A stretch of DNA of 64,000 nt from Zobellia galactanivorans (lineage in GTDB: Bacteria > Bacteroidota > Bacteroidia > Flavobacteriales > Flavobacteriaceae), in assembly GCF_000973105.1 (NCBI RefSeq), contig NC_015844.1:1484501-1548500 (forward strand). The letters run 5' to 3'. Below, one piece after another: positions 406-20,543 of this stretch. The notes under the pieces were generated by a model. It did not search any database. It had not been told where the DNA came from and was given only the letters and a program-made list of their open reading frames with translations. Both the position numbers and the translations under genes were made by a program. The first letter of the stretch is position 1. Every line of letters starts with the position of its first letter.

Positions 406-1440
406 TTACTTTTTCTTGCCCGTAGAGTTTCGTTCTATTAGGGTAGCCTCTATAATCTCGGTCCTATAGGTTTCCTCTTCCTCAAACCCGATTTCATTTT
501 CAAGTTTTTCGATCAACATTTCCGCGGCAACTTCCCCCATTCGCTCACCGTGCTGCGCTATGGTGGTCAATGTTGGGGAGGAATATCGCGATAAAAGGCC
601 ATTGGTAAAACCAATAACCGAAATATCTTCCGGCACCCTATATCCTTTTTCTTGTGCTATACCCATAACCTGAACCGCAAAGACCTCGTTTACACATAAT
701 ACGGCATCGAACTCTTCCTCTACAAAAAAGGCCTCGATACACGATTCTTCCCCGCCCCTAAAAGGCACCACAAGAGTGAGTTTGGGGTCGTAATGGGCAC
801 CTTGTTCAATTAGGGCCCGCCTATAGCCTTCCGCCCTTTTTTCGCTTACATTAAAATAACTCTCGGTAGTCACCAAAGCTACTTTCTTTTTTCCTTCTTC
901 CAAAAATTTACAGGTAGCTTCATATGCTATTTCCTCATCGTTCATCACCACCTTATCGCATTCTACCCCATCTATGACCCGATCGAACAGCACCAAGGGA
1001 AAGCCCTGATCCATGACCTCCCTTAAATGATGGAAGTCGTTTTTCTGTTGTGTTCCGGCAGAGATCGACATTATAAAACCATCGATACTCCCATTGGCGA
1101 GCAGCTCCATATTTACCACCTCCTTATCATAAGATTCGTCCGACACACAGACGATGACGTTGTAACCCCGCGCATTGGCATACTTTTCTATGCCCCTGAA
1201 CACAGTGGTAAAAAAGTGATGCACAATATCGGGAATTATGACCCCTATATTCTTCGTCCTTCTATTTTTTAAGCTTAAGGCTATGTTGTTTGGTCTATAA
1301 TTATACAGTTTGGCAAAGGCCTGTATCTTCTGTTTGGTATCTTTACTTATCTCGTTACTGTCCTTTAACGCTTTTGAAACCGTGGAGATAGATACCTCTA
1401 ATTCTCTTGCTATTTGTTTTAGAGTGATTTTTCGCTTCAA
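406..1440 (-). CDS. LacI-family transcriptional regulator
   Basis: 344 residues, the normal length of the family. The N-terminus (TLKQIARELEVSISTVSKAL, about residues 6-25) is a LacI-type helix-turn-helix, followed by the hinge helix region (YRPNNIALSLK) and a periplasmic-binding-protein-like sensor domain (NIGVIIPDIVHHFFTTVFRG onward, residues about 63-335). It would bind a sugar and control the adjacent transport locus. It is transcribed away from susC, with a 346-base divergent region carrying a good LacI-type dyad at 1676-1691, and is followed by pgmB. The ATG at 1438-1440 fits the family start. The effector is unknown; the pgmB partner suggests a glucosyl disaccharide, which is inference. 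Confidence 0.93.
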   Translation of the reverse strand: MKRKITLKQIARELEVSISTVSKALKDSNEISKDTKQKIQAFAKLYNYRPNNIALSLKNRRTKNIGVIIPDIVHHFFTTVFRGIEKYANARGYNVIVCVSDESYDKEVVNMELLANGSIDGFIMSISAGTQQKNDFHHLREVMDQGFPLVLFDRVIDGVECDKVVMNDEEIAYEATCKFLEEGKKKVALVTTESYFNVSEKRAEGYRRALIEQGAHYDPKLTLVVPFRGGEESCIEAFFVEEEFDAVLCVNEVFAVQVMGIAQEKGYRVPEDISVIGFTNGLLSRYSSPTLTTIAQHGERMGEVAAEMLIEKLENEIGFEEEETYRTEIIEATLIERNSTGKKK

Positions 1441-1786: not shown

Positions 1787-4700
1787 ATGAAGATTACGCT
1801 ACTAAAAAACCTGGTTATGCTTGCGGCTTTTTTAAGCTTTGGCATAGCACAGGCCCAAGACGTATCGGGAACCGTTTCCGATGCCAGTGGCCCTTTACCG
1901 GGAGCAAGTATTGTGGTAAAAGGCACCACCACTGGGGCACAAACGGACTTTGATGGAAATTACACCTTGAGCGGAGTGCCCGAAGACGCTACTTTGGTTT
2001 TCAGCTATATTGGTTATGCTTCTCAAGAAATACCTGTAAACGGCCAATCTACGATCAACGTAACTTTACAGGAAGACGCCCAAGCTTTGGACGAAGTGGT
2101 CATTATAGGATACGGTTCAACAACCGTAAAGGATGCAACGGGATCGGTTGCCTCAGTAACCTCCGAAGACTTTAACAAGGGGGTTATTTCTTCCCCGGAA
2201 CAATTGATCCAAGGTAAAACTGCCGGTGTACAAATCTCACAAGGAAGTGGTGAACCTGGTTCGGGTGTCTCGATTCGTATTCGAGGTACTTCTTCGGTAC
2301 GATCGAACAACAACCCATTATTCGTTGTTGACGGTGTTCCCTTGCCCTCTGGGGATACCTCTTCGGAAGGAACCAATATTGGTGTAGGTTCCAGTTCGGC
2401 CAGAAACCCATTAAGCTTCCTTAACCCCAACGATATTGAAAGTATGAGTGTATTGAAAGATGCCTCTGCTACAGCCATTTATGGTTCAAGGGGTGCCAAC
2501 GGTGTTGTAATTATCACGACCAAGAGTGGAAAAGGAGGCGCCGAAGGTGGAACTTGGGAATTTTCTTCCGACCTAAGTTTTTCAGAACCTGCAGAAGAAT
2601 ATGACCTGCTTAACAGAAGACAGTTTCTTTCTGCCGTAGACGCTTTCGGCGGATCGGCTACCGATTACGGCAATGATACCGATTGGCAGGATTTGGTTAC
2701 CAGAAGCGCAGCCTCTACCAATAACAACTTGGCCTATTCCCAAAATTATGGCTCAGGTAACGTAAGGGCCACCTTCAATTACGGAAAGCAATTCGGTGTT
2801 ATCAAAAAATCATCGCAAGAGCGTATTACGGGTAGATTGAATATCTCTCAAAGACTTCTAGACGATAAATTGAGATTAGATTTACAAGGTACCATATCAA
2901 GGGTTAACGATGAAGCCCCTCCATTAAGTGGTAGTGCCGGCTCTACCGGTGACCTTTTAGGTTCTGCATATTCGGCGAACCCGACTTGGCCAGCGAGCTC
3001 AAGCTTTAACCCTGGGGATAGAATCAACCCCTTGAACTTACTTGAAAACTGGCAAAGTTTAAACAACACAAACCGTTACTTGGTCAACTTCTCCGCCTCG
3101 TACGACATTCTTGACAACCTGACCGCCAAGGCAACCTTCGGTTATGATAAGGCGGACGCGACAAGAGAAGCGTCATTGAACGCTAACTCCTTCAATGTAG
3201 CAAGAGGTGCCGCCGGCAATGGCCGTGGCGCTTTAAACGACCTTATCAATGAAAACCGTTTGTTCGAATTTACGGTAAACTACAAAACGGAGTTTGAAAA
3301 CTCGACTTTAGATGTACTGGGTGGTTTTTCATTCCAAGACTTTAATGTAAGAGGAAGAAATGTTGAAGGTTGGGGCTACTCGACAACCGATTTGAATTCC
3401 ATGGCCCGAGACCTATCGAATGCTTCAGACATTCTAGAGTCGCAACTTTCAGGTTCTTATCAGCAATATGGCTACGCGGCTGATGTAGGAGGCGACGATG
3501 TACCGGACGGTCTTTTTGTCAACCGCTTATTCCCTTCGGCCCAAACCGAATTTTTAGGGGACGCTTCCATTCCGGTTAGCTCTATTTTTACCGACACCTT
3601 TGATAATACCGACGAATTGCAATCATTTTTCGCCCGGGTCAATTACACTATAGCGGATAAGTATTTATTTACCGCCACAGTAAGGGCGGATGGCTCTTCT
3701 AAATTCGGAGATAATAACCAGTACGGTATATTCCCTTCCGGAGCCTTTGCCTGGAAAATCAATGAGGAAGATTTCATTGGCGATGCGGTCTCTACCTTAA
3801 AACTTAGACTGAATTACGGTATTACCGGTAACCAAGATGGTCTTGGTTATGGCCGATTCGTACGAAGGGAGAGATATTCGACTGGCAGCATAAACGACGC
3901 AGGAGAAATTAATGTTCCGGGAATTACAACCGTTGAATTTGCCAATCCCGATTTAAAATGGGAAGAAACGACACAATATGGTGTTGGTCTCGACTTCGGT
4001 TTTGCAAATGACAGATTAAACGGTAGTCTTGATTTCTATCGTAAGGAAACCAAAGATTTGCTCTTGAACATAGAAGCAGCGCAACCATCGCCACAGCCTA
4101 CTTTCTTTCAGAACTTAGATGCACTGGTGTTGAACCAAGGGGTTGAATTCTCCTTGAATTACGACTTTGTACAATCCGAAGATTTTAATTGGTCTGCCGG
4201 TTTCAACATAGCATATAACAAAAATGAGATACAGGATTTTGATGGACAGATTGCCGCAGGAACCATTCGCGGTGCAGGTCTTTCAAACGCCTTTGCACAA
4301 CGTTTGGCCTCCGGTCAACCTTTGTTCTCATTCTATTTACGTGAATTCATAGGTTTTGATGAAAATGGAAACCCTATTCACGAAGGCGGAAATGACAATC
4401 AAAAATTTGTAGGTAAAAGTGCCCTTCCCGATTTTACCGGTGGTTTTTCAACAAGCTTGAATTATAAAAACTGGGATGCCTCCTTATACTTCAACGGTCA
4501 GTTTGGAAATTATATCTACAACAATACAGCAAACGCCTTCTTTACCGGTGGGGCTATTGGTAGTGGAAATAATGTAACCCAAGATGTTGTAGGACTTGCA
4601 GGCGAAGAAGGTCGATTTGCCGAAGCATCGGTCTCTACCCGATTTTTAGAGAAAGGAGATTTCGTAAGACTGCAAAATGCATCTATCGGCTATAACGTAC

Positions 4701-4912
4701 CTCTATCAGGAGAGGGTTGTTTCGACACTATGAGATTGAGCCTAAACGCTCAAAACCTATTCGTAATTACCGGTTATAGTGGTCTTGACCCTGAAGTTAG
4801 CGTTAGCCCTGCAGGCGCAGACCTTCTTAACGGATTGCCTATTGCCGGCATCGATTACAGTTCTTTTCCAAGACCAAGAACATTGACGGTTGGAATTAAC
4901 GTAACTTTTTAA
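1787..4912 (+). CDS. susC: SusC/RagA-family TonB-linked outer membrane transporter
   Basis: 1041 residues, the usual length. A signal peptide ends near AQAQDVSG (about residue 23). A carboxypeptidase-regulatory-like domain follows (GTVSDASGPLPGASIVVKGT, residues about 28-110), then a TonB-box-like stretch (DEVVIIGYGS), the plug domain with the SusC hallmarks RIRGTSSVRSNNNPLFVVDG and LKDASATAIYGSRGANGVV, and a long beta-barrel ending in a terminal phenylalanine (GINVTF). It imports glycan oligomers across the outer membrane using TonB energy, with SusD as the lid. susD starts 10 bases downstream, so they are co-transcribed. The divergent LacI-type regulator and operator imply sugar-responsive control. 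The substrate is not readable; the pgmB/LacI context favours an alpha-glucoside. Confidence 0.95.
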   Translation: MKITLLKNLVMLAAFLSFGIAQAQDVSGTVSDASGPLPGASIVVKGTTTGAQTDFDGNYTLSGVPEDATLVFSYIGYASQEIPVNGQSTINVTLQEDAQALDEVVIIGYGSTTVKDATGSVASVTSEDFNKGVISSPEQLIQGKTAGVQISQGSGEPGSGVSIRIRGTSSVRSNNNPLFVVDGVPLPSGDTSSEGTNIGVGSSSARNPLSFLNPNDIESMSVLKDASATAIYGSRGANGVVIITTKSGKGGAEGGTWEFSSDLSFSEPAEEYDLLNRRQFLSAVDAFGGSATDYGNDTDWQDLVTRSAASTNNNLAYSQNYGSGNVRATFNYGKQFGVIKKSSQERITGRLNISQRLLDDKLRLDLQGTISRVNDEAPPLSGSAGSTGDLLGSAYSANPTWPASSSFNPGDRINPLNLLENWQSLNNTNRYLVNFSASYDILDNLTAKATFGYDKADATREASLNANSFNVARGAAGNGRGALNDLINENRLFEFTVNYKTEFENSTLDVLGGFSFQDFNVRGRNVEGWGYSTTDLNSMARDLSNASDILESQLSGSYQQYGYAADVGGDDVPDGLFVNRLFPSAQTEFLGDASIPVSSIFTDTFDNTDELQSFFARVNYTIADKYLFTATVRADGSSKFGDNNQYGIFPSGAFAWKINEEDFIGDAVSTLKLRLNYGITGNQDGLGYGRFVRRERYSTGSINDAGEINVPGITTVEFANPDLKWEETTQYGVGLDFGFANDRLNGSLDFYRKETKDLLLNIEAAQPSPQPTFFQNLDALVLNQGVEFSLNYDFVQSEDFNWSAGFNIAYNKNEIQDFDGQIAAGTIRGAGLSNAFAQRLASGQPLFSFYLREFIGFDENGNPIHEGGNDNQKFVGKSALPDFTGGFSTSLNYKNWDASLYFNGQFGNYIYNNTANAFFTGGAIGSGNNVTQDVVGLAGEEGRFAEASVSTRFLEKGDFVRLQNASIGYNVPLSGEGCFDTMRLSLNAQNLFVITGYSGLDPEVSVSPAGADLLNGLPIAGIDYSSFPRPRTLTVGINVTF

Positions 4913-4922
4913 AAAAACAGAT

Positions 4923-6497
4923 ATGAAACTATATATAAAACTCAAGCCCGTATTACTTTCGGCTTTAACAGTCGCCCTGCTGGTCTCTTGTACCGACTTG
5001 GAAATAGAGGAGACGGACTCTTTAATCAGTAAAGATTCGGGAGCCACCGGCTTTACAGGACTAACCAACACGGAGTCTTCACTTAACGACCTTTACAACA
5101 AAGTAGGAGGAGATTTTCAAACCCAAGAAAACATGTATGCCCTATCCGAGGTTTCCACTGACGAGCTTCTTGTACCTACAAGGGGAACGGATTGGGGAGA
5201 TAACGGAATCTGGAGACAGTTGCACACCCATACCTGGACACCTGCCCACCTGTTCGTTAAGAACTCTTGGAACAATTTGAACCAGAATATTTTTAGGGCA
5301 ACGGAAATTATAGAAAGTAACCCCTCTAATTCCGTATTGGCAGAAGCCAAGTTTCTTCGTGCCTTTAACATGTTCTTTGTTATGGATTTGTTCGGGTCAG
5401 TACCTTTCCGAGGTGTTGATGAAGGTCCGGATGTAAATCCAAAAGTAATGAGTAGAAGCGAAGCTTACAGTTTTGTTGAAACCGATTTACTCGAAGCCCT
5501 ACCCAATCTAGAATCAATTACGCCCGGCACCGAAAATACGGGTAAAGCTTCTCAAGAAGCCGCTAATTTCTTATTGGCTAAACTCTATCTTAACGCGGCC
5601 ATATACAATGGTAGCGGAACATTTGACAATGCGGATATGCAAAAAGTAATCGATGCCGTAGATGCGATTCAGGCAAAAGGTTTTGCATTGCAAGAAGGAT
5701 ATTTCCAGATTTTTGAACCCACAGATGACACCGAAACAATCTGGCATCTGAACAGTGAGGTAGCATCACGTATTTGGAACACCCTACACTACAGCCAAAA
5801 TTCACCTGATAATGATGGTGGTGGTTGGAACGGGTTTACCACCCTTTCCGATTTTTACAACAGCTTTGAAGGAGCCCCAAATACAAACTACGTAGGTGAT
5901 GGACAAGAAGAACGACGAGGTTTTGTACCTGACGCCAATAACGCCAACAATCAAAACTTGGGCATAGGATATGGCTTCCTGATTGGTCAGCAATACGATC
6001 AAAACGGCAACCCTCTTACCAATCGTCAAGGCGATCCCTTGGTCTTTACCAAAGAAATTCCTGCCCTAGTGGGTAACACCGAGGTAGAAGGCGTAAGGGT
6101 CATCAAATACCACCCATACGACCCTACCGATGAGGAAGATCAAATCAATTCATTCCGAAAACATCAAATCATGTTCAGATTTGCAGATGCCCATTTGATG
6201 AAAGCGGAAGCAATGATGCGCATGGGGCAAGATCCCACTGCTACCGTCAATGAATTACGACAGAAGAGAGCCGATACTCCTGATTTAACTTCGGTAGATG
6301 AACAAGAACTTTTAGACGAACGCGGAAGAGAATTGTTTTTAGAATATTGGAGAAGAAACGATTTGATTCGTTTTGGTCAATTCACCGCTCCATGGAGTCT
6401 GAAAGAAGTTAGTGGAGATGAAACGACGAACTTGTTTCCGATACCCGAAACCGCTCTTCTATCCAATCCCAACCTAGTTCAAAATCCAGGATACTAG
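4923..6497 (+). CDS. susD: SusD/RagB-family glycan-binding lipoprotein
   Basis: 524 residues. The N-terminus is a lipoprotein signal (LTVALLVSC, lipidated Cys about residue 23) followed by acidic residues, as is common for surface-exposed lipoproteins in this phylum. The N-terminal SusD-like segment with TPR-type helices (ATEIIESNPSNSVLAEAKFL, then RAFNMFFVMDLFGSVPF) and the C-terminal RagB/SusD signature (LRQKRADTP, then ELLDERGRELFLEYWRRNDL and IPETALLSNPNL) are clear. It binds glycan at the cell surface and caps SusC. It is the last gene of the unit: a strong terminator lies 24 bases after the stop. No SusE/SusF-like protein follows, which is unusual for a LacI-linked maltodextrin locus. 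Confidence 0.95.
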   Translation: MKLYIKLKPVLLSALTVALLVSCTDLEIEETDSLISKDSGATGFTGLTNTESSLNDLYNKVGGDFQTQENMYALSEVSTDELLVPTRGTDWGDNGIWRQLHTHTWTPAHLFVKNSWNNLNQNIFRATEIIESNPSNSVLAEAKFLRAFNMFFVMDLFGSVPFRGVDEGPDVNPKVMSRSEAYSFVETDLLEALPNLESITPGTENTGKASQEAANFLLAKLYLNAAIYNGSGTFDNADMQKVIDAVDAIQAKGFALQEGYFQIFEPTDDTETIWHLNSEVASRIWNTLHYSQNSPDNDGGGWNGFTTLSDFYNSFEGAPNTNYVGDGQEERRGFVPDANNANNQNLGIGYGFLIGQQYDQNGNPLTNRQGDPLVFTKEIPALVGNTEVEGVRVIKYHPYDPTDEEDQINSFRKHQIMFRFADAHLMKAEAMMRMGQDPTATVNELRQKRADTPDLTSVDEQELLDERGRELFLEYWRRNDLIRFGQFTAPWSLKEVSGDETTNLFPIPETALLSNPNLVQNPGY

Positions 6498-6603: not shown

Positions 6604-7755
6604 TTAAAAGCCAACGACCATTTCCAATTTTAAATCTGTGTCGACCCTATGCTGTCCTTTGACCTTGAACAGGGCCGTAAAATACTTTTTCCCCTTCAGA
6701 TGATCGGCCTCGAACTTCTGAAGACTATCCTTATCCGTAAAATATTCCGCAGTAGCACTCACACCGATATCGTGTTGGGAGAAAAACACAAAGTGTTCGG
6801 TATTGCCAATACTCGGGTATTTTGAGACAATCGCATATTCTTCATCTACCAAGGTAGACCCCATGCTCCACGAGGTATCCTCTAGGCTAGGATGCCCCGA
6901 AAGCACCAATGTTCGCGATGTTAAGGTAAAAAACGGGTTAGCATCGTTAAAAAAACCTATGAATTGGTTCTCGTTTTTCAAAGGCCCGGCATAAATGGCA
7001 TTTCCCTCTTTGATTTCAGGCAAGGTAGTCTGGGTAGAGAACCTGATGGAAAACCCTTTGTCATAGCGCTGAAAAAACTGCTGAAACCGTTGCGAGGCCA
7101 TTGCCGCCATACGGGTAGTGTAACTGTACTTCGCAGGATGGAGCATCCCCTTCAACTCGGGTTTTCTTTCCAATAAATCGTAGAATTCATCAATATTGTT
7201 GATCTCAAAATCACGGGTCCACCCCTTCCCCCCGGTCAAGGTTTGTCCCATAGCCCCAAAGTGATCTCCAAGAACAAGGTTGGTAGAAGCACCGGAACCG
7301 AGAAAAGACCTCCATAGCGATGGTGTTTTAGGAGGCATGTAGGCCACCAACAAGGCTACCAACGCAAGAAGCAACAATCCGTACGGGAGTACTTGCCTCC
7401 AGCCTATTTTTTTTGCCCATCCTACCGACACCTGTTTCTTGACAAACCGCACTTTATACTGCCCTTTATCGATTTTTAACTGCCAAGCTTCGGCACTGCC
7501 CTCGCTCTCGTAATAGGCCAGTAACTTTTTTCTCAAGTTGTATATATTGACCCTGACCCTCGGATTGTTCTTTTCTTCGACCTGATTATCCTTAAAGAAT
7601 TCGAGTTCTATTACGGCTTCCTTTAAATGGGTTCCTTTCTTGGTCGCCTCGTACAAATACTGAAGTAGCCCTCTGCTGGTCGGGGCGTTTTTAAAGGTTT
7701 CACTTTCCTTAATTTTAGAAACAATCTCTTGTTCAAGTTTTTCGCTCAAATGCAT
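6604..7755 (-). CDS. Membrane-anchored winged-helix-like DNA-binding protein with unknown periplasmic domain
   Basis: 383 residues. Residues about 1-105 resemble the N-terminal DNA-binding-like module found before adenylate cyclase or TPR regions in other phyla: TSRGLLQYLYEAT, LKEAVIELEFF, then NPRVRVNIYNLRKKLLAYY and a KGQYKVRF ending. A lysine/arginine-flanked hydrophobic helix (LPYGLLLLALVALLVAYM, about residues 123-140) would cross the inner membrane, placing about 240 C-terminal residues in the periplasm. That region matches no family I recognise; it is rich in aromatic residues and could sense a ligand. It is divergent from the GH2 gene with 211 bases between them and convergent with susD, so it may control either one. 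Function is inferred from architecture. Confidence 0.7.
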   Translation of the reverse strand: MHLSEKLEQEIVSKIKESETFKNAPTSRGLLQYLYEATKKGTHLKEAVIELEFFKDNQVEEKNNPRVRVNIYNLRKKLLAYYESEGSAEAWQLKIDKGQYKVRFVKKQVSVGWAKKIGWRQVLPYGLLLLALVALLVAYMPPKTPSLWRSFLGSGASTNLVLGDHFGAMGQTLTGGKGWTRDFEINNIDEFYDLLERKPELKGMLHPAKYSYTTRMAAMASQRFQQFFQRYDKGFSIRFSTQTTLPEIKEGNAIYAGPLKNENQFIGFFNDANPFFTLTSRTLVLSGHPSLEDTSWSMGSTLVDEEYAIVSKYPSIGNTEHFVFFSQHDIGVSATAEYFTDKDSLQKFEADHLKGKKYFTALFKVKGQHRVDTDLKLEMVVGF

Positions 7756-7790
7756 GAAGAATACAATAAAATAGGTAGTTTCAAATCTGC

Positions 7791-7815
7791 TTTAACCGTT
7801 ATAGCTACCGTTAAA
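7791..7815. promoter_or_regulatory. Repeat cluster in the divergent region between the membrane HTH gene and GH2
   Basis: TTTAAC (7791-7796) and GTTAAA (7810-7815) form an inverted repeat, and ACCGTTA occurs twice as a direct repeat (7795-7801 and 7807-7813), 12 bases apart; GGGTTAAAG follows. The site lies within 60 bases of the minus-strand start, so it could be an autoregulatory operator. This is pattern-based only. Confidence 0.35.
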
Positions 7816-7966
7816 GAAGGGTTAAAGTACTAAGAATAAAGCGTAAAATATACATTTACCCCATTGATTTCAACGCCATTCCCTACCCCAATACACTTTT
7901 GGCAAGGGCATAGGCAATCGATAAAACAAACCGACACGGCATTCATGCCATTAATACATCCTAGCC

Positions 7967-10813
7967 ATGAAAATGAATATAAGCTCTAGCGTATTACTAT
8001 TCACCCTGCTCTGCATGTTCGGCGCGAATGCCATGCAATCGAATACGGAACCCAACGAGGTCGAAACCGAAAAAATGTACCTTTCCGGCACGGGAAAGGA
8101 CGATATGGTAGACTGGGAGTTCTTCTGTTCCGATGGAATGAACAGCGGCAAATGGACGACCATCGGTGTTCCGTCTTGTTGGGAATTACAGGGTTTTGGT
8201 TACTACAACTACGGCAAGGACGATTTCAAGGTACGCAAGAACGAGTACGGACGCTACAAATACCAGTTCGACCTTCCTAAAAAATGGAGGAACAAGGAAA
8301 TAAAAATCGTATTTGAAGGCGTTATGACCGATGCCGAGGTCAAGATCAACGGAAAATTGGCCGGCGAGGTGCACCAAGGGGCCTTCTATGAATTCAAGTA
8401 CTCTATTTCACACCTTTTGAAATACGGTGAAAAAAACATGTTGGAAGTCAAGGTCAACAAGGCTTCTTCCAACTCCTCCATCAATCACGCCGAGCGTGAA
8501 GCCGATTTCTGGATTTTCGGTGGAATTTTTAGACCGGTCTACCTACAAGCTTTTCCAAAAGAAAACATAGAACGTGTCGCCATCAACGCCAAAGCCGACG
8601 GAAGTCTAGAAGCCGATATCTTTACAACATCTAAAAAGGCGCAATCGCTACGCCTTTCCCTATCAGACCTCGACCATAACAAACTGCAAGAACTCCCCCT
8701 TACCGATATCAGCAAGGAACAAGGAAAATGGCACGTTTCAACAAAAGCCCATGATATCAAATCATGGAACCCAGAATCACCACAACTGTACTTCTTGAAT
8801 ATTGAACTTTTGAACAAAAAAGGGGAGATTCTACACAAGACCCTAGAACGCATAGGTTTTAGAACCGTTGAAGTTCTTGAAGGCGACGGGATATACGTAA
8901 ACGGGCAACGCATTAAGTTCAAAGGGGTGAACAGGCATTCGTTCTATCCGTCCTCCGGCAGAACCACATCTAAAGAACTAAGTATAGAACATGTAAAAAT
9001 GATGAAAGACATGAACATGAATGCCGTTCGTATGTCGCACTACCCACCAGACACCCACTTTTTAGACGTTGCCGATTCACTAGGCCTTTTTGTTATAGAT
9101 GAAGTGTGCACTTGGCATTCGCCCCATCTAGATACCAAAGTGGGCCGAAAAATTGTTAAGGAAACCGTGGTTCGAGACGTCAACCACCCCTCCATTCTCC
9201 TTTGGGCCAATGGCAATGAAACCGGATGGAACACCGCCCTCGATGATGATTATGCCAAATGGGACATCCAACAACGGGAAGTCATCCACCCATGGAACAT
9301 CTTCAGAAAGACGAATACAATGCACTACCCCAGCTATCACGTTTTTGCATACGACACCTATGCAAAAGACAAAATATACTTCCCTACCGAGTTTTTGCAC
9401 GGCCTATACGACGGTGGACACGGCGCGGGCTTAGACGATTATTGGAAACAGATGTGGAATATGCCCCTAGCTGCCGGAGGGTTTTTATGGGACTTTGCAG
9501 ATGAGGCCGTGGTTCGAACAGATAAAAAAGGAATACTAGATACCGATGGCAACCATGCAGCCGATGGTATCGTCGGACCCTATGGCGAAAAAGAGGCCAG
9601 TTACTTTAGTATTAAGGAAATCTGGTCTCCGATATACATAGAAGACCGCTATATAAAACCGGACTTCAACGGTGTTTTTAGAATAGAGAACAGGTATCAC
9701 TTTACCCATTTAAACGAAATCAAAATGGCGGCTAAATGGGTACGGTTCGACGGCCCCAAAGGAACGGGTAAGATTAAGACCATATCCGAAACCACAGTTG
9801 CATTACCAAATCTGGCCCCTGTTATAAAAGGCGAGTTTAAAGTCGACCTCCCCAATAACTGGCAAACCGCAGATGCCTTGTACTTAACGGCAACGGCCCC
9901 TAATGGCTCCGAAATATTTACATGGTCCTACCCCATAAAAATTCCTAAGAAAATAAACGAAACCTACATCGACCTATCGGAAGAAGGGGAAATTTCAACC
10001 CATACCGAAGCCGGACGAATAAAGGTTGTAGCGAATGGGATTCAGTATAGCTTTTCAGAAAAAACAACTTTGTTAGAAGAGGTGAAGAAGGCAGGTAAAA
10101 TAATTCCTTTCAATAATGGCCCGATAATTTTTGACCATAAAGACAAAATCGAATCCGTAAAGATCAACAAACTTAAAGGCAAGGTAGAGATTCTTACCGT
10201 TTTCGAAGCATCGGATAAGTCGCCCAGTTGGGCCAGCCATAAAGAGTATAGTTCCGATGTCATCAAATGGACCGTACACTCCAACGGCCTGTTGGACCTA
10301 CATGTAGAAATTAAAGGCAAAAAAATAGTAAAGGGGTTTAAGGGCATTACCTTTTCTTTTCCCGAATCTGAAGTTAGCGGTATGAAATGGCTGGGTGATG
10401 GCCCCTATCGCGTATGGCGGAACAGAATGAAGGGCACCAAATTTCAAGTTTGGGAAAACGATTACAACAATACCGTCACCGGTGAATCCGGTTTTGTATA
10501 CCCAGAATTTAAAGGATTCTTTTCGAGCCTGTATTGGGTAAAAGTAAAAGGGAAAAACAACAACGGTTTTACGGTATATTGTAATTCCGAAAATACCTTT
10601 TTGCGCATGCTTACCCCCCAGCATCCTAAAGAAGATCCCAACCATAGGGTTTCGGTAGATTTTCCGGAAGGCGATATTTCCTTCGTAAAAAACATTCCCG
10701 CAATTGGAACCAAATTTCAAACAGGAGACAAAATGGGACCTCAAGGAAATTCGGAAAACTACTTTGGAAACGACGATGAACCCATAACTATACATCTGAG
10801 CTTTGAATTTTAG
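7967..10813 (+). CDS. Secreted glycoside hydrolase family 2 (beta-galactosidase/beta-glucuronidase-like)
   Basis: 948 residues. A signal peptide (SSVLLFTLLCMFGANA) is followed by the GH2 sugar-binding jelly roll (about 55-195, with FWIFGGIFRPVYL), an immunoglobulin-like domain (about 200-300), and the TIM barrel from about 305 (GVNRHSFYPSSG, NMNAVRMSHYPPD). The acid/base is probably E418 in WANGNE and the nucleophile E475 in FPTEF. About 350 further residues form C-terminal beta domains like those of large GH2 enzymes. It would remove a beta-linked sugar from an algal glycan in the periplasm or at the surface; the exact sugar cannot be read. It has its own transcription unit, with a terminator behind it and the membrane HTH gene divergent in front. 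Confidence 0.9.
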   Translation: MKMNISSSVLLFTLLCMFGANAMQSNTEPNEVETEKMYLSGTGKDDMVDWEFFCSDGMNSGKWTTIGVPSCWELQGFGYYNYGKDDFKVRKNEYGRYKYQFDLPKKWRNKEIKIVFEGVMTDAEVKINGKLAGEVHQGAFYEFKYSISHLLKYGEKNMLEVKVNKASSNSSINHAEREADFWIFGGIFRPVYLQAFPKENIERVAINAKADGSLEADIFTTSKKAQSLRLSLSDLDHNKLQELPLTDISKEQGKWHVSTKAHDIKSWNPESPQLYFLNIELLNKKGEILHKTLERIGFRTVEVLEGDGIYVNGQRIKFKGVNRHSFYPSSGRTTSKELSIEHVKMMKDMNMNAVRMSHYPPDTHFLDVADSLGLFVIDEVCTWHSPHLDTKVGRKIVKETVVRDVNHPSILLWANGNETGWNTALDDDYAKWDIQQREVIHPWNIFRKTNTMHYPSYHVFAYDTYAKDKIYFPTEFLHGLYDGGHGAGLDDYWKQMWNMPLAAGGFLWDFADEAVVRTDKKGILDTDGNHAADGIVGPYGEKEASYFSIKEIWSPIYIEDRYIKPDFNGVFRIENRYHFTHLNEIKMAAKWVRFDGPKGTGKIKTISETTVALPNLAPVIKGEFKVDLPNNWQTADALYLTATAPNGSEIFTWSYPIKIPKKINETYIDLSEEGEISTHTEAGRIKVVANGIQYSFSEKTTLLEEVKKAGKIIPFNNGPIIFDHKDKIESVKINKLKGKVEILTVFEASDKSPSWASHKEYSSDVIKWTVHSNGLLDLHVEIKGKKIVKGFKGITFSFPESEVSGMKWLGDGPYRVWRNRMKGTKFQVWENDYNNTVTGESGFVYPEFKGFFSSLYWVKVKGKNNNGFTVYCNSENTFLRMLTPQHPKEDPNHRVSVDFPEGDISFVKNIPAIGTKFQTGDKMGPQGNSENYFGNDDEPITIHLSFEF

Positions 10814-10859
10814 ATATATACCCCTTCATTAAGACCAAAAAAACATATCTATAACCGAG

Positions 10860-10883
10860 AGCCCTGTGTAACGCAGGGCTTTT
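10860..10883 (+). terminator. Intrinsic terminator after the GH2 gene
   Basis: AGCCCTG (10860-10866) and CAGGGCT (10874-10880) form a GC-rich 7-bp stem with a 7-base loop, followed by TTTTC then an AT-rich tract. It is 46 bases after the GH2 stop. Confidence 0.8.
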
Positions 10884-10906
10884 CAATTTTAACACTATCA
10901 TTTATT

Positions 10907-10968
10907 GGATATAATCCATATATTAGGAATTATTCCATAATTTAGCTATCCAATTTTTTAAAGGATAG
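10907..10968. promoter_or_regulatory. Cluster of GGAT/ATCC dyads upstream of the mutagenic polymerase operon
   Basis: Three dyads occur in 62 bases: GGATATAATCC (10907-10917), GGAATTATTCC (10926-10936, centre 19 bases further on) and CTATCC...GGATAG (10946-10951 and 10963-10968). A near-consensus -7 box TAATTTAG (10938-10945) lies between the second and third. This is the arrangement expected for repressor sites controlling a DNA-damage-inducible operon, but I do not know a matching regulator. Confidence 0.5.
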
Positions 10969-11089
10969 TTATGCAAAAGATACTCTCACCGCCCGTCCTT
11001 TTACACTTTAGCAGATCTGCAGAAACAACTGCAAACCTGCCCGTTACCATAAGCACAGATACAACCGCCTTTCTCAAAATCCCTTGCGC

Positions 11090-14068
11090 ATGTATTTGAA
11101 CTGTCATACTTATTACAGCCTTCGCTATGGCACATTAAAACCAGAAGAACTTTTGGCTTTGGCGGCCGAGAACAACAATGGGGTTTTGGCATTGACCGAT
11201 ATTAACAATACCTCAGCCTGCCTCGATTTTGTACGTCTGGCCCCGAATTATGGTATCAAACCGGTTTTAGGTGTAGACTTCAGAAACGGGGTCGACCAGC
11301 AATTTGTAATCCTAGCCAAGAACAATGATGGCTTTAGGCGCATCAATGCCTATCTATCTTCCTTTTTGCACCGACCAGGGGCGATCATACCGGAAAGCCC
11401 TATTGAAATGGAGGACTGTTTTGTGATCTATCCCTTTGAAAAAGGAAAAGACCGTATTCTGAACAAAAACGAATACCTAGGGGTCGCACCAAAAAAATTA
11501 CGCCATTTAAAATTTTCGAAAAGCACTTTTGAAACGGATAAATTGGTGCTATTGCACACAGTATCGTTTCGCGACAAAAGAGGCTTCAACACCCATCGCC
11601 TTTTGCGGGCCATCGACAACAACACCTTGTTGAGCAAATTACCTGAGCACGAACAAGGTAGTGAAACCGACCGTTTCTTAACTGCTGAAGCAAGGGAGCG
11701 GATTGCCGTCGATTTTCCTGAATTGACAGAAAACACAAAACGATTACTCGATAGTTGCCATATTAAATTTGATTTTTCAAAAACCACGCCCAACAACCAG
11801 CGTTCGTATACCCAAAACGAAGAACTGGATTTTCGTTTGCTTCAAAAGCTTGCTTATCAAGGCATACCCTATCGTTATAAAAAAGTAGACGAAACCATAT
11901 ACAGTCGGGTGTCAAAAGAATTAAACATTATAAAAGAGAAAGGCTTCGTTTCTTACTTTTTGATCAATTGGAAAATTTTAAAATACGCAAGAAGCAAAGG
12001 TTACTTTTATGTAGGTCGCGGCAGCGGGGCCAATAGCATCATTGCCTATTTACTGCGGATAACCGATGTAGACCCCATAGAGCTTGACCTGTATTTTGAG
12101 CGCTTCATCAACCTATACCGCCAAAATCCCCCTGACTTCGACATTGATTTTTCTTGGTCGGACAGGGATGACATCACCCGGTTTATGTTCGAACGGTTTA
12201 AGAATACCGCCCTCATTACCGTTTACAATACTTTTAAGTTTAGGGCATCGGTACGTGAACTGGGAAAGGTTTTTGGCCTGCCCAAGTCAGAGATAGATAT
12301 ACTTAGCAAAGGCAAATATGACATCAACCAGCTCGATAGACTTTCACAACTGGTCATAAAATACAGTCGGTATATACAAGGCTTCCCAAATTACTTGGGC
12401 ATTCATGCCGGAGGTGTTTTAATTTCGGAAAAGCCTATACACCATTATTGCGCCACTTTTATGCCTCCCAAAGGCTTCGCCACCACACAAATCGACATGG
12501 TGGTCGCCGAAGATATCGGTCTGTACAAATTCGACATTCTAAGTCAACGCGGCCTAGGAAAGATTAAGGACGCCGTTGAAATCATAACAAAAAACCACAG
12601 GAACATAAAGTCGATAGATATTCATGACATCAAACGGTTCAAGGAAGACCAACGTATTAAACACTTATTGAAAAATGCCAAGGCCATAGGCTGCTTTTAC
12701 GTAGAATCGCCCGCCATGCGTATGCTTTTAAAAAAATTACAGGTCGACAACTACTTAGGCCTGGTCGCCGCAAGTTCGGTCATTCGACCGGGAGTGGCAA
12801 AGTCAGGAATGATGCGGGAGTATATTTTACGCTACCGTTACCCCGAACGCCGAAAAGAGGCCCACCCTGTTCTATTGCACATTATGCCCGAAACTTTTGG
12901 CGTTATGGTCTACCAAGAAGACGTCATTAAAGTGGCACACCACTTTGGCGGGCTAACACTGGGCGAGGCCGATATGCTACGTCGGGGGATGTCGGGAAAA
13001 TTTCGCTCCCGAGACGAGTTCCTAAAAGTAAAACAACGGTTTTTCGACAATTGCAAGGCTGATGGCAAGCCCGATGCGGTAACCCGTGATATCTGGAGGC
13101 AAATCGAAAGTTTTGCCGGCTATGCCTTTGCCAAGGGACATTCTGCCTCATATGCCGTTGAAAGCTATCAGAGCCTTTTCTTAAAGGCATACTACCCTAT
13201 AGAATACATGGTGGCCACGCTCAACAATGGCGGTGGCTTTTACAATCGGGAACTGTACATACACGAGGCCAAGATGCACGGGGCCCTTATTGAAGCGCCC
13301 TGTATCAACCATAGTGAATACCTAACCCGGGTACAAGGGAAAAAAATCTATCTCGGCTTTAGCCTTCTAAAAGATTTGGAAACCCGTACGGTAGAAAAAA
13401 TACTTGCCGACAGGGCACAACATGGGACCTACAAAAACCTTGACGATTTTATCGATAGGGTCTCCATTTCAACAGAACAGATGGCCATACTCATTAAAAT
13501 CAATGCATTTCGTTTTACCGGAAGCAATAAAAGGGAACTTCTTTGGTCTGCCTACCTACAAACAAGCAAGATTCCCAAAGAAGAGCATGTCAACACCTTG
13601 TTCCGTTCAGAAAAAATATCGTATAAAACCCCTGAACTAAAAAGTAGCGAACTAGAAAACGCCTTTGACGAATATGAACTTTTAGGCTTTCCATTGTGCA
13701 ATCCGTTCGATTTACTCGCCTCCCCAAAAAAGAATGCTTTGAGGGTTAGCGAGCTACTTTCTTATAAAGGCAAGATCGTTACTATTGAAGGCTATTTGGT
13801 AGCCACAAAAAATACCGCTACCTCAAACGGAAAACCCATGTACTTCGGTACATTTTTAGACCGAAGCGGCGACTTTATCGATACCGTTCACTTTCCTCCC
13901 GTAGCGGCCAAATTTCCATTTAGGGGAAAGGGCATCTACTCCATCACCGGAAAAGTAACGGAAGAATTTGAGTGCGTCAATATTGAAGTAACGACCATGT
14001 ACCGCCAGGCCATTATTGAAGACCCAAGATATTCGGATAACCATAATACAACCTTGTCCCATGTCTGA
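11090..14068 (+). CDS. DNA polymerase III alpha-subunit-like polymerase (DnaE, error-prone/ImuC-like)
   Basis: 992 residues from ATG 11090 (an in-frame TTG lies 6 bases earlier; the family start MYLNCHTYYSLRYGT favours the ATG). It has an N-terminal PHP domain (NCHTYYS, LALTDINN), the C-family palm with GRGSGANSIIAYLL and the catalytic PPDFDIDF (Asp about 351 and 353), a third catalytic Asp in LYKFDILSQRGL, helix-hairpin-helix regions and an OB fold near the C-terminus. At under 1000 residues it is shorter than replicative DnaE (about 1160), closer to DnaE2/ImuC-type enzymes that act in damage-induced mutagenesis. It overlaps the Y-family polymerase gene by 8 bases, so they are translated as a pair. 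A 42-codon frame at 10971-11099 overlaps its start and could be a leader, unproven. Confidence 0.9.
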   Translation: MYLNCHTYYSLRYGTLKPEELLALAAENNNGVLALTDINNTSACLDFVRLAPNYGIKPVLGVDFRNGVDQQFVILAKNNDGFRRINAYLSSFLHRPGAIIPESPIEMEDCFVIYPFEKGKDRILNKNEYLGVAPKKLRHLKFSKSTFETDKLVLLHTVSFRDKRGFNTHRLLRAIDNNTLLSKLPEHEQGSETDRFLTAEARERIAVDFPELTENTKRLLDSCHIKFDFSKTTPNNQRSYTQNEELDFRLLQKLAYQGIPYRYKKVDETIYSRVSKELNIIKEKGFVSYFLINWKILKYARSKGYFYVGRGSGANSIIAYLLRITDVDPIELDLYFERFINLYRQNPPDFDIDFSWSDRDDITRFMFERFKNTALITVYNTFKFRASVRELGKVFGLPKSEIDILSKGKYDINQLDRLSQLVIKYSRYIQGFPNYLGIHAGGVLISEKPIHHYCATFMPPKGFATTQIDMVVAEDIGLYKFDILSQRGLGKIKDAVEIITKNHRNIKSIDIHDIKRFKEDQRIKHLLKNAKAIGCFYVESPAMRMLLKKLQVDNYLGLVAASSVIRPGVAKSGMMREYILRYRYPERRKEAHPVLLHIMPETFGVMVYQEDVIKVAHHFGGLTLGEADMLRRGMSGKFRSRDEFLKVKQRFFDNCKADGKPDAVTRDIWRQIESFAGYAFAKGHSASYAVESYQSLFLKAYYPIEYMVATLNNGGGFYNRELYIHEAKMHGALIEAPCINHSEYLTRVQGKKIYLGFSLLKDLETRTVEKILADRAQHGTYKNLDDFIDRVSISTEQMAILIKINAFRFTGSNKRELLWSAYLQTSKIPKEEHVNTLFRSEKISYKTPELKSSELENAFDEYELLGFPLCNPFDLLASPKKNALRVSELLSYKGKIVTIEGYLVATKNTATSNGKPMYFGTFLDRSGDFIDTVHFPPVAAKFPFRGKGIYSITGKVTEEFECVNIEVTTMYRQAIIEDPRYSDNHNTTLSHV

Positions 14069-15278
14069 AGAAAGAGCTATAGTACACATGGACCTCGATA
14101 CGTTTTTCGTGTCATGCGAGCGCTTGCAAGACAGTCGTCTAAACCACAAGCCCATATTGATAGGGGGCACATCAGACCGAGGGGTAGTAGCCTCATGCAG
14201 TTACGAAGCCCGAAAGTTCGGTATTCATTCGGCCATGCCCATGCGTATGGCCAAACAACTCTGCCCCGAAGCCATTGTGCTAAGAGGCAATGCCACAACC
14301 TACAGCAAATATTCAAACCTGGTTACCGAGGTAATCAAAGACAGTGTGCCCCTATATGAGAAAAGTTCGATAGATGAATTTTTTATAGACCTAACGGGAA
14401 TGGACAAATTTTTCGGATGCCATCAAATGGCCATCGAACTTAGGCAACGGATCATCAGGGAGACGGGATTGCCGATTTCCTTTGGGCTATCGACCAATAA
14501 GACCGTATCCAAAATAGCCACGGGACAGGCCAAGCCCAATAACCAAATCAGGGTTTTCAAGGGTACGGAAAAACCCTTCTTGGCCCCCCTATCCGTACGA
14601 AAAATACCCATGGTCGGCGAGGTCACCTATAAATCGCTATGCGATCTGGGAATCAAAAAAATTGTCACCGTACAACAAATGCCCATGCAATTAATGCATA
14701 AGGTACTGGGTAAAAACGGATTGAGTATTTGGAAGAAAGCCAACGGCATAGACAACAGCCCCGTAATCCAATATCACGAACGAAAATCGATATCTACGGA
14801 ACGCACCTTCGACAAAGACACCACAGACATTAAAAAGCTAAAAAGCATCACTATAGCCATGGCCGAAAATTTAGCCTATCAGTTAAGAAGGGGCAATAAA
14901 CTAACGGCCTGCATCACCTTTAAAATACGCTATTCCGATTTTCAAACCTATACACAACAACAGAAAATACCTTACAGCTCCCTCGACAGCAGCATATTGC
15001 CCGTTGTTCTGAACTTGTTCGAAAAACTCTACAACAGGCGCCTGCTGGTTCGTTTAATCGGTGTTCGGTTCAGTCATTTGGTAGAGGGCGGGCATCAGAT
15101 CAACCTATTTGAAGACAACGAAAAACTGATACGCCTTAGCCTTGCCATAGACAAAATGCGCGAGCGCTACGGAGACCGCTCCGTTATCAGTGCCGCTGGA
15201 ATGGAAGCCAAAAGCATCAGCCGATGGAATCCTTTTTCCGGGGAGCCCCCTCCCCTCTTACCGAATAGAAGAAGGTAA
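14061..15278 (+). CDS. dinB: Y-family DNA polymerase (DinB/Pol IV-like, UmuC-type)
   Basis: 405 residues from ATG 14061, which overlaps the previous stop (ATGTCTGA); a start 45 bases earlier is possible but extends beyond the family N-terminus. Catalytic acidic residues are in IVHMDLDTFFVSCE and SSIDEFFIDLTG; the little-finger domain covers about residues 230-350. Near the C-terminus QINLFED resembles a beta-clamp-binding pentapeptide, consistent with recruitment to the replication clamp. Together with the upstream polymerase it forms a translesion pair, equivalent in logic to ImuB/ImuC cassettes, although here the Y-family member keeps its active-site residues and no ImuA or S24-type LexA gene is adjacent. 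A strong bidirectional terminator follows. Confidence 0.93.
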   Translation: MSEERAIVHMDLDTFFVSCERLQDSRLNHKPILIGGTSDRGVVASCSYEARKFGIHSAMPMRMAKQLCPEAIVLRGNATTYSKYSNLVTEVIKDSVPLYEKSSIDEFFIDLTGMDKFFGCHQMAIELRQRIIRETGLPISFGLSTNKTVSKIATGQAKPNNQIRVFKGTEKPFLAPLSVRKIPMVGEVTYKSLCDLGIKKIVTVQQMPMQLMHKVLGKNGLSIWKKANGIDNSPVIQYHERKSISTERTFDKDTTDIKKLKSITIAMAENLAYQLRRGNKLTACITFKIRYSDFQTYTQQQKIPYSSLDSSILPVVLNLFEKLYNRRLLVRLIGVRFSHLVEGGHQINLFEDNEKLIRLSLAIDKMRERYGDRSVISAAGMEAKSISRWNPFSGEPPPLLPNRRR

Positions 15279-17046: not shown

Positions 17047-17218
17047 TATAAACTGGTTTGATATTTCGGCTAAATATATTGGATTATTTGCGAAAAACTC
17101 AAGGTTTAACAGACAATATATGCGATATCACATATGCCTCATAAATTAAGATAAAATTTCACAGGCCTGTAATTTTCTATACCTCTGGGCTTTGATTATC
17201 TTGCAGATGATTTTTACT

Positions 17219-20200
17219 ATGAAAAAAGCACTGGTTTTAATTTGGGTCGGGACGCTGTCCTTTTTTATACTTTCCTGCTCAGAAAAAAAGCAGGAACCCC
17301 CATTCCTATTTCAAAAACGTAAGAATTCCCAGACGGGAATCACCTTTAAAAACGCCCTCAAGAACACCCCCGAGCTTAACATACTTAACTATCTCTACTA
17401 TTACAACGGGGCTGGAATAGCGGCAGCGGATTTTAATAATGACGGAAGCGTAGACCTCTACTTTACGGCCAATGAGGCGGCAGACCATTTTTACCTGAAC
17501 CAGGGCGGCCTCAAATTCAAGGAAATAAGCCAAAAAGCGGGCATCAACAATACCGAGGGATGGACCACCGGAGTCACCCATGTCGACATCAACAATGACG
17601 GACTGCTAGACCTCTACATCTGTAAAGTCGGCAAGTACAAACATATGGAAGGCTCGAACCTGCTCTATGTAAACCAAGGTAATGACAAAGACGGAAACCC
17701 TGTTTTTAAGGAGGAAGCAAAGAAATACGGACTTGATTTCTCGGGATTTTCGACCCAAGCCGCATTTTTCGATTACGATCTTGATGGTGACCTAGACCTG
17801 TTTCTCCTCAACCACTCGGTACACCCCAACCGCACCTATGGCAAGGGAAGCAAAAGAAAAAAGACCGCCCCCTTATCCGGCGATCGACTTTACAAAAATG
17901 AAAACGGAAAATTTGTAGATGTTTCTTCCGAAGCCCATATTTTTCAAGGTGAAATCGGATACGGCCTTGGCCTTGGCATAAGCGACGTCAACAATGATGG
18001 CTATCCCGATGTATACGTAGGTAATGATTTTTTTGAGAACGACTACCTCTACATCAATCAAAAAGACGGCATTTTTAAAGAAATCATCTCTGAAAACGAC
18101 AAGAAGTTAGGGCATACCACCCACTTTTCAATGGGCAATGACCTGGCCGATATCAATAACGACGGTCTCACGGATATTGTTTCCCTAGATATGCTTCCCG
18201 AAAACCTGGAAACCTACAAAACATCAGGACTGGAATATCCCTATCCCACCTATCAAAACTACTTACGGAACGGTTATGCCCCCCAATACATGCAGAATAC
18301 CCTGCACCTCAACCTCGGCCACGGCAACTTTAGCGAAATAGCCCATTTAGCCGGTATTTCCGCTACCGAATGGTCATGGGGAGCCCTGCTGGCGGACTAT
18401 GATAACGACGGGCTAAAAGACCTTTTTGTTTCAAACGGAATCAAAGGGGCCACCAACGATATGGACTTCATCAACTTTATTGCCAACGACAATATTCAAA
18501 AACGTATTGAAGAAGGCATGACCGAAGAAGACATGGCCTTTATTGATGAAATGCCCCATAAAAAAGAACCGAATTACTTTTTCAGGAACAAAGGTGACCT
18601 GACTTTTGAAAACGTATCCAAAACATGGTCCGACCTAGAAAAAAGTTACAGCAACGGCAGTGTTTATGCCGACCTTGATAATGACGGCGACTTAGATATT
18701 GTAGTGAACAATGTCGACCAAGAGGCCTTTGTTCTGGAAAACACCAGCGAAACGACTGCGGAAAACCATTTTTTAAATATCGGTTTTAAAGGAGCCCCGA
18801 GCAACTTGTTCGGTATTGGGACAAAAGTCATCGCCTATAGCAAGAATAAGGCCATAAGCGCTGAAAATTTCGTCAGCAGGGGATACTTATCATCGGTACC
18901 GCCCCGACTGCATTTGGGCATAGGTAAAGATTCAGTTCTCGATTCGGTAAAAGTGATATGGCCGGGCGGAAAATTTCAAACCCTAAAAAACCTGCAGGCC
19001 GACCAAAAAATAGAACTGAGCATTTCAGAGGCCCGTGGAAATTATTACGAAACGCCTAAAACATCTGCGGCCACCTTACTACACAACAAAAACGACTTCC
19101 TTGGTTTCTACCATAAAGACAGCCCTACCCTTGAATTCAACCGAAGTCCCTTGGTTCCTTTTGCCAATACCAATGAAGGTCCCGAAATTTCAGTGGCCGA
19201 CATCAATGCAGATGGTCTCGACGATATTTTAATCGGTGGTGGAAAGGGCCAAGCTACGGCTTTGTTCGTGCAACGACCGAACGGTGTATTCAAAGAAGAG
19301 CAAACGGGGCTCTTTGAGGAAGACGCCATTAACGAAGACCTATCACAGCTCATTTTTGACGCCGACGGCGATGGCGACCAAGATCTCATCATTGTCAGTG
19401 GCGGTAACGAATTTCAATCGGGAAAGCCCCTACAGCCAAGGTTTTATCGAAACCACGAGGGGCAATTCAAAAAAGAAGACCAGCAGTTCTCCAATATTTC
19501 TCCCAATGCTTCAAAGGTAGGCTCCGTAGATTTTGACAATGACGGCGACCTCGACCTCATCATAGCCTCCGACCAGGTCCCGCACCAGTTCGGTACCACG
19601 CCTTCGCAATATATATTTGAAAACGATGGTTCAGGAAACTTTACCGACGTATCCGACACCTTCGGAAAGCCGTTTAAAGGCGTAGGCAACGTAAAAGATT
19701 TTATTTGGACGGATTTGGACGGAAATGGGTTTCAAGACCTTATAGCCGTAGGGCATTGGATGCCGGTCAGCATCTTTTACAATGATGGAAAAAGTTTACA
19801 GCCCCGGAAAGACCCTGCACTCAAAAACACCAATGGCTGGTGGAACGTAGTTGTGGCCGATGACTTTGACAATGACGGCGATATCGATTTTGTTGCAGGA
19901 AATTGGGGACTCAACAGCAAGTTCAGGGCATCTGCCACCGAAGCGATCACCCTTTACAATGCCGATTTTGACGAAAACGGAAACATAGACCCTATAGTCA
20001 CCTATTTTCATCACCACAAAGAAACCCCCTTTGCCTCAAAAGACGAACTCGTCAAACAATTGCCCTATTTGAACAAACGGTTTTTATCTTATAAAGACTT
20101 TGCCCAAGCTTCGGTTTTCGACCTCTTCTCAAAAGAGAAATTGATAAAATCTGACCAAAAAAAGGTATACGAATTACAAAGTTCGTTTTACGAAAACGAT

Positions 20201-20542: not shown

Positions 20543-20543
20543 T

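Follow-up and report, generated by a model that had tools for sequence, protein, structure and literature searches.

A predicted membrane-anchored winged-helix regulator and its candidate tandem operator upstream of a divergent GH2 gene in Zobellia galactanivorans

Introduction

How marine Bacteroidota choose the algal glycan genes that they express is understood at few loci. The 64,000-nucleotide stretch of the Zobellia galactanivorans chromosome (5,521,712 bases in all) analysed here, referred to below as the window, raises this question at a gene flanked by a susC/susD pair (1787-6497) on one side and an oppositely read GH2 gene (7967-10813) on the other. What kind of protein does this gene encode, and which of its neighbours might it control?

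Results

The gene and its surroundings

The interval 6604-7755, read on the minus strand, translates into 383 amino acids with zero internal stops, and the opposite strand of the same interval contains many. The gene is thus confirmed as a real and intact open reading frame. Full-length relatives sharing 25-96% identity with the product are found across many genomes, so a chance reading frame can be dismissed; the closest named relatives are Zobellia proteins. The GH2 gene begins at 7967 and is transcribed divergently from the regulator gene across a gap of 211 bp (7756-7966). Together with the Pfam Glyco_hydro_2 domains of the enzyme, this bears out the divergent GH2 enzyme of the original prediction, which had been made from the sequence alone. 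The features to which the text refers are as follows.

406-1440, minus strand: LacI gene, divergent from susC
1787-4912, plus strand: susC
6604-7755, minus strand: regulator gene, 383 aa, predicted single-pass membrane protein (open reading frame and relatives)
6607-7329, minus strand: codons of residues 143-383, alpha/beta domain with a predicted periplasmic location and a predicted fold like that of BcsB and of the accessory domain at the GH67 N terminus (AF2, VIA-align)
7339-7401, minus strand: codons of residues 119-139, predicted transmembrane helix (AF2 helix; hydropathy and charge)
7432-7755, minus strand: codons of residues 1-108, predicted OmpR/PhoB-like winged helix (AF2, VIA-align, PF00486)
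7791-7827, plus strand, reading toward GH2: candidate operator, with ACCGTTA at 7795 and 7807 (12-bp step) and a third unit, GTTAAAG, at 7821
7851-7858, plus strand: putative -7 promoter element of the GH2 unit, TACATTTA (Bacteroidota consensus TAnnTTTG)
7967-10813, plus strand: GH2 enzyme, 948 aa, predicted target (Pfam Glyco_hydro_2 domains)

Elsewhere in the window, translations directly past the GH2 gene read as a DnaE-type polymerase (11084-14068) whose gene overlaps that of a DinB-type polymerase (14016-15278), and three long consecutive genes at 17192-27209 (1101-1132 aa) read as proteins with FG-GAP/ASPIC-like repeats.

The N-terminal domain resembles OmpR-class winged helices

Taken alone, the window protein gave no above-threshold sequence match in Pfam, NCBIfam or the PDB. 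An AlphaFold2 model of the whole protein, built from 15 sequences (mean pLDDT 78), puts a beta wing on a helical N-terminal domain, followed by a membrane helix (residues 119-139) and an alpha/beta domain (residues 143-383). The N-terminal domain modelled alone reached a pLDDT of 87.9 and a pTM of 0.82; the winged-helix model has helices at residues 5-16, 25-40, 46-52 and 66-83 and wing strands at 91-95 and 102-106. Foldseek alone found no significant match for the winged-helix model or for the whole model, the best for the latter being BcsB at E 0.012, and the fold assignments of both domains rest on second looks with VIA-align rather than on Foldseek. Every one of the first ten VIA-align rows for the N-terminal domain is an OmpR/PhoB-family effector domain (Z 6.3 to 7.6), led by PrrA (Z 7.6, 89 residues aligned, 3.5 A), RstA with DNA (7.2), SaeR (7.2) and PhoB with the pho box (6.9); RstA, PhoB, GlnR and AdeR appear in these rows as DNA complexes.

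These Z values are middling, yet sequence matches to PF00486 (Trans_reg_C) agree with them. Of 45 family members, 32 had a match to this model at E<=1, the best at 7.3e-5; every other Pfam family was limited to three of the 45 at most. A PDB profile search with the same number of members gave nothing useful. When the window's own genome was searched with PF00486, the sole matches beyond four above-cut-off proteins were three family members, which scored 18.7, 15.5 and 14.3 bits against a cut-off of 26.2, the window protein being the last. The four-stranded beta sheet expected at the N terminus is absent from the model, which has a helix at residues 5-16 and no strand before residue 91; according to PMC5430869, CadC has a beta sheet ahead of alpha1. 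The missing sheet therefore suggests a divergent form of the OmpR-type domain, and models and sequence matches together support a divergent OmpR-class winged helix.

The original prediction had also likened this module to those found before cyclase or TPR sequences in other phyla. A module of this type does precede TPR-like sequence in two proteins, L107:313-1896 and L108:1465-3039, whose translations read as the N-terminal module followed by a TolB-like/TPR-like region without a membrane sensor; both belong to the window's own phylum. A search with the N-terminal alignment was positive in 3 of 61 genomes of the phylum, and the class-wide count was at least 5/395, with only four candidates scored per genome. 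A plasmid search returned mainly rhizobial proteins, which share the N-terminal module alone; the gene context in S. meliloti gave no functional lead.

A single membrane helix precedes an alpha/beta domain

The protein has a single hydrophobic segment (residues 122-140, mean Kyte-Doolittle 2.41), which with the helix modelled at residues 119-139 agrees with the predicted arrangement of one membrane helix followed by about 240 residues. Just two of 72 family members have an extra segment with a mean Kyte-Doolittle value above 1.6. In the window protein the net charge flanking the segment is +4 on the N side and +2 on the C side, and across the family net charge favours an N-in topology in 57 of 72 members and does not in 15. 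Because of this bias, the C-terminal domain is likely to sit in the periplasm.

The alpha/beta domain is mostly well predicted by AF2. The statement that this region could not be assigned holds for sequence (Pfam, NCBIfam and PDB), and neither the window protein nor 45 family members gave a Pfam or PDB sequence match linking the C-terminal domain to BcsB or GH67. It does not hold for the predicted fold: a structural search with VIA-align gave as best match the cellulose-secretion protein BcsB (Z 12.0, 127 residues aligned, 2.9 A), and next the GH67 alpha-glucuronidase N-terminal domain at Z 11.0 (121 residues aligned, 2.7 A), with weaker matches to GH115, GH84 and GH20 enzymes. The domain may bind or sense a glycan, although a fold like that of domains in sugar enzymes is not the same thing as sugar binding.

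A conserved tandem repeat lies upstream of the GH2 promoter

The spacer between the regulator and GH2 genes contains the tandem-repeat sequence ACCGTTAtagctACCGTTAAAGnnGnGTTAAAG. The core TTTAACCGTTATAGCTACCGTTAAAGnnGnGTTAAAG, or a close variant with at most two substitutions in 19 bases, is common to all 13 GH2-clade spacers extracted, a set that extends to a Persicobacter plasmid, whose relative is 40% identical; one further locus, L011, fell outside the set as its neighbour is not GH2, yet it has an operator site. Beyond Zobellia, the GH2-clade spacers have little that can be aligned besides this block. The best 22-mer, taken over six diverse spacers, agrees at 20 or more of its 22 positions, against 12-14 in 20 shuffles. 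Allowing three mismatches, the 23-mer has one match within the window, and the sole match of the GH2-type 21-mer in the whole genome is the GH2 spacer. The wider clade-A sequence combines a direct 12-bp step with a partial dyad; since ACNGT is identical on both strands, the pattern ACNGT-N7-ACNGT cannot tell direct from inverted repeats.

The block keeps a mostly constant distance from a promoter-like element. In 12 of the 13 spacers a TAnnTTT starts exactly 35 nt past the 19-base core, and in nine it is a perfect TAnnTTTG; the window has TACATTTA and the Persicobacter spacer is without an exact box. Five GH2-linked loci collected later gave a mixed result, with a perfect box at the same offset in L137 and L145 and not in L134, L142 and L157. 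The -7 consensus TAnnTTTG and its numbering from -12 to -5 are taken from PMC6847099, and on this numbering the operator would span about -72 to -36, with its 3′ end at about -36.

This position is usual for activators, but it also bears on the alternative that the same protein, bound at the same operator, represses the GH2 unit until a ligand releases it. Some winged-helix regulators do repress, and the operator lies close to the promoter, with its downstream edge at about -36. It lies upstream of the -7 box and start site, however, and not over them, and no -33 TTTG box is visible in the window's GH2 promoter when the sequence is read directly, which suggests that the promoter needs help. 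Moreover, relatives of ToxR and CadC are mostly activators. CadC itself is described as an activator in PMC5430869. Repression is accordingly the unlikely direction of control.

The repeat pattern recurs across the family

Alignments of other clades contained related blocks upstream of members with other partner genes. A 37-column matrix built on the GH2 clade placed the best site of a locus in the upstream region for just 8 of 36 other loci; such a matrix being too narrow for clades beyond its own, we turned to a simpler pattern of two units. ACNGT-N7-ACNGT was present in 16 of 35 family upstream regions and in 1 of 225 controls, though it had been partly chosen after the alignments of other clades had been seen. 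A test was therefore fixed beforehand and run on genomes unused until then, leaving out L132 and L140 as duplicates of L002 and L010. The pattern was found upstream of 22 of 28 new members and in none of 210 control regions, and was not found upstream of the remaining six members. It was also specific in period: among periods 7 to 18 other than 12, period 11 gave 2 of 28 and the others none. A second pattern of A.BGTTA repeats was weak, with three family and two control regions at period 12. Among members outside the window's class the operator was present in 1 of 16 (L094), and these may use another site. By sequence comparison, then, the conserved candidate operator is tied to the regulator family.

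Family members are divergent from many kinds of partner

Members occur in 12 of 149 and 27 of 397 genomes of the window's taxonomic family and in 12 of 395 of its phylum. Eleven of the 12 named relatives have a GH2 gene of the same type in the divergent unit, either directly divergent (L001-L005, L008, L009 and L012, the GH2 of the last reading as two ORFs) or behind a glucuronate isomerase gene (L006, L007 and L010); L011 is without GH2. The divergent unit of the Persicobacter plasmid relative likewise comprises GH2 and glucuronate isomerase. The upstream neighbour is divergent for 70 of 73 family genes, compared with 218 of 575 when every gene of the loci is counted, the family genes and their partners among them. 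On a tree of the 73 members partner labels change 24 times, against 50.9 in shuffles. In the window's family, many of the partners are GH2, GH3, glucuronate isomerase, 3-keto-disaccharide hydrolase or TonB-dependent receptors.

All 15 members with a PSCyt/PSD1 partner fall in one clade (L063, L075, L076, L077, L080, L131, L133, L141, L148 and L151-L156). Each of them is divergent from a PSCyt1/PSCyt2/PSD1 ('planctomycete cytochrome') gene, after which there is often a gene that we read as DUF1501-like, and the clade ties a regulator to a unit of unknown function. Five other members (L062, with the partner at 4348-6207, and L071, L130, L136 and L149) are divergent from a partner of about 620 aa that carries the motif YNNNRIAISADGN near its start in several cases; the L062 copy had no Pfam or PDB match. 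Two full-length relatives lie tail to tail on a Novosphingobium plasmid (L061:5986-7257, plus strand, and 7254-8708, minus strand), so the family is not confined to Bacteroidota.

Sites away from the regulator gene

Across 18 genomes TTAACNGTTANNNNNACNGT occurs 38 times, 31 of them less than 400 bp upstream of a family gene; the reversed pattern has 11 sites. Another of the 38 heads a run of genes that includes a family gene (L201), and five have no family or GH2 reading, four of these lying inside coding sequence by our own reading.

One Zobellia genome, G951, provides an evolutionary natural experiment in which target and operator lie far from the regulator. An intact operator (L195:7161) stands upstream of two tandem GH2 genes (7257-12942) that are 67% identical to that of the window and about 280 kb from the regulator gene, which is itself intact, lacks a GH2 neighbour and adjoins a degenerate operator. 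Such an arrangement would also be expected if the block were a feature of GH2 promoters read by some other factor, with the family gene merely hitch-hiking. Against this, the 12-bp step is also seen in related blocks beside family genes with GH3, PSCyt, TonB receptor or other partners, so that the factor common to them is the family protein. In the window's own genome the generic pattern has four sites, of which three belong to family promoters (predicted binding positions 1492292, 2338872 and 3847528). We consider hitch-hiking very improbable.

The fourth of these sites (L163:8118-8137; 1221117-1221136 of the window's genome, G000) has no family gene near it and lies upstream of porphyranase B, a GH16 enzyme named by near-identity to 3juu. 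It is close in sequence to the operator of a paralogue at 3847687-3848832 of the same genome. In the Zobellia genomes G001, G951 and G1099 all sites belong to family genes or to the relocated GH2 pair, bar one unexplained intergenic site in G1099, and the porphyranase B site is thus without a second example. As a putative target of the paralogue, porphyranase B is a lead from one genome.

The porphyranase B site and the range of partners also speak to what the C-terminal domain might sense. It could respond to the state of the envelope, to some other periplasmic condition or to a partner protein instead of a glycan: the closest fold by Z is that of BcsB, and some paralogues adjoin genes that are not clearly carbohydrate enzymes, such as those of the 15-member PSCyt/PSD1 clade. 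A partner list with GH2, GH3 and glucuronate isomerase in it, and an operator before a porphyranase gene, weigh the other way, and a non-glycan signal seems to us unlikely.

susCD is probably under LacI control

The adjacent susCD genes had been proposed as targets as well, and the whole region could be pictured as a single polysaccharide utilisation locus under this regulator, given that susCD adjoins the regulator gene in the window. The operator is absent from the susC upstream region at up to one mismatch, and the GH2-type 21-mer, sought through the whole genome at up to three mismatches, occurs only at the GH2 spacer. Between susC and the divergent LacI gene lies ACGAAACCGTTTTCGT (1676-1691), 14/16 palindromic, which we take to be a LacI-type site. 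Among the Zobellia loci seen, moreover, susCD adjoins the regulator in just two, those of the window and of Z. uliginosa DSM 2061 (L001); L002-L005 have sulfatases in its place. We therefore do not link the regulator to susCD. Its control of these genes is not supported, and we regard it as the most remote of the alternatives; susCD is probably governed by LacI.

Discussion

A proposed membrane-anchored switch for the GH2 unit

Our preferred reading, which we hold with fair confidence from sequences and models, is that the regulator is a membrane-anchored one-component switch of the ToxR/CadC kind that activates the GH2 unit through the tandem operator. Comparison of sequences supplies its frame: the order of the domains, the conserved operator with its mostly fixed phasing to the -7 box, the tie between operator and family, and the operator at the relocated GH2 pair. 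The remaining parts, namely DNA binding, activation in preference to repression, the periplasmic location, the ligand and dimerisation, we infer as follows. The cytoplasmic winged helix would bind the tandem operator in the regulator-GH2 spacer, and the single helix would span the inner membrane. The periplasmic domain of 240 residues would most likely bind a breakdown product of the glycan on which the GH2 enzyme acts; we guess at a uronate-containing oligosaccharide, since in several genera the unit also includes glucuronate isomerase. Binding of the ligand might change dimerisation and so bring two or three winged helices onto the repeats at -72 to -36, where they could assist RNA polymerase, the promoter having a -7 box and no visible -33 box. 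Of the one-component glycan sensor first proposed, the part concerning a one-component regulator of the divergent GH2 gene is upheld by Trans_reg_C, the predicted fold and the conserved operator, and glycan sensing would be a further step.

The analysis offers a scarcely described regulator family, a likely DNA code and predicted targets, namely the GH2 unit for this regulator and porphyranase B for a paralogue. More tentatively, and with slightly less than even confidence, we suggest that Bacteroidota have a further class of membrane-tethered glycan regulators, apart from HTCS, SusR and sigma/anti-sigma systems. Its members would share an operator code of ACNGT at a 12-bp step, each paralogue would pair with one catabolic unit, distant genes could be acted on as well (the relocated GH2 pair, porphyranase B), and the sensor would be drawn from the alpha/beta accessory domain of glucuronidases. 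Bound to DNA while anchored in the membrane, such regulators would also bring the promoters of exported enzymes there.

Comparison with known systems

In the literature searched, with subscription papers and preprints outside its scope, we found no description of this regulator family or its operator. Transmembrane transcription regulators as such are a known kind, surveyed with Pfam models in PMC10269533. The window protein scores below the Pfam cut-offs, and surveys based on such cut-offs would miss members like it. With ToxR/CadC-like regulators the protein shares a predicted order in which an OmpR-type winged helix at the N terminus is joined by one membrane helix to a C-terminal domain on the far side, and also a repeated AT-rich operator near the promoter. 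It differs from them in that its winged helix has no N-terminal beta sheet in the model and scores below the Trans_reg_C cut-off, its C-terminal domain is not of the ToxR or CadC type by any match, and the family operator repeats ACNGT every 12 bp and lies next to a -7 box of the Bacteroidota kind.

SusR-like and HTCS proteins are membrane glycan sensors that control nearby degradation genes, as stated in PMC3878776, and the same role is predicted for this regulator. Unlike HTCS, however, it has no histidine kinase, receiver or AraC domain in Pfam, either in the window protein or in the families shown for 45 members; nor do the window protein and these 45 members have sigma-70 regions or a FecR domain. 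OmpR/PhoB response regulators have the same effector-domain fold and tandem operators whose units are spaced by about one turn of DNA, but the present regulator lacks a receiver domain and is predicted to be anchored in the membrane. The 'cyclase-type' wHTH-TolB/TPR proteins L107 and L108 have a related N-terminal module, joined, by our reading of the translations, to a TolB-like and TPR-like region instead of the predicted periplasmic domain. Finally, BcsB and the accessory domains of GH67, GH115, GH84 and GH20 enzymes share the predicted fold of residues 143-383 in the absence of any sequence match, and here that fold appears fused to a membrane helix and a DNA-binding domain.
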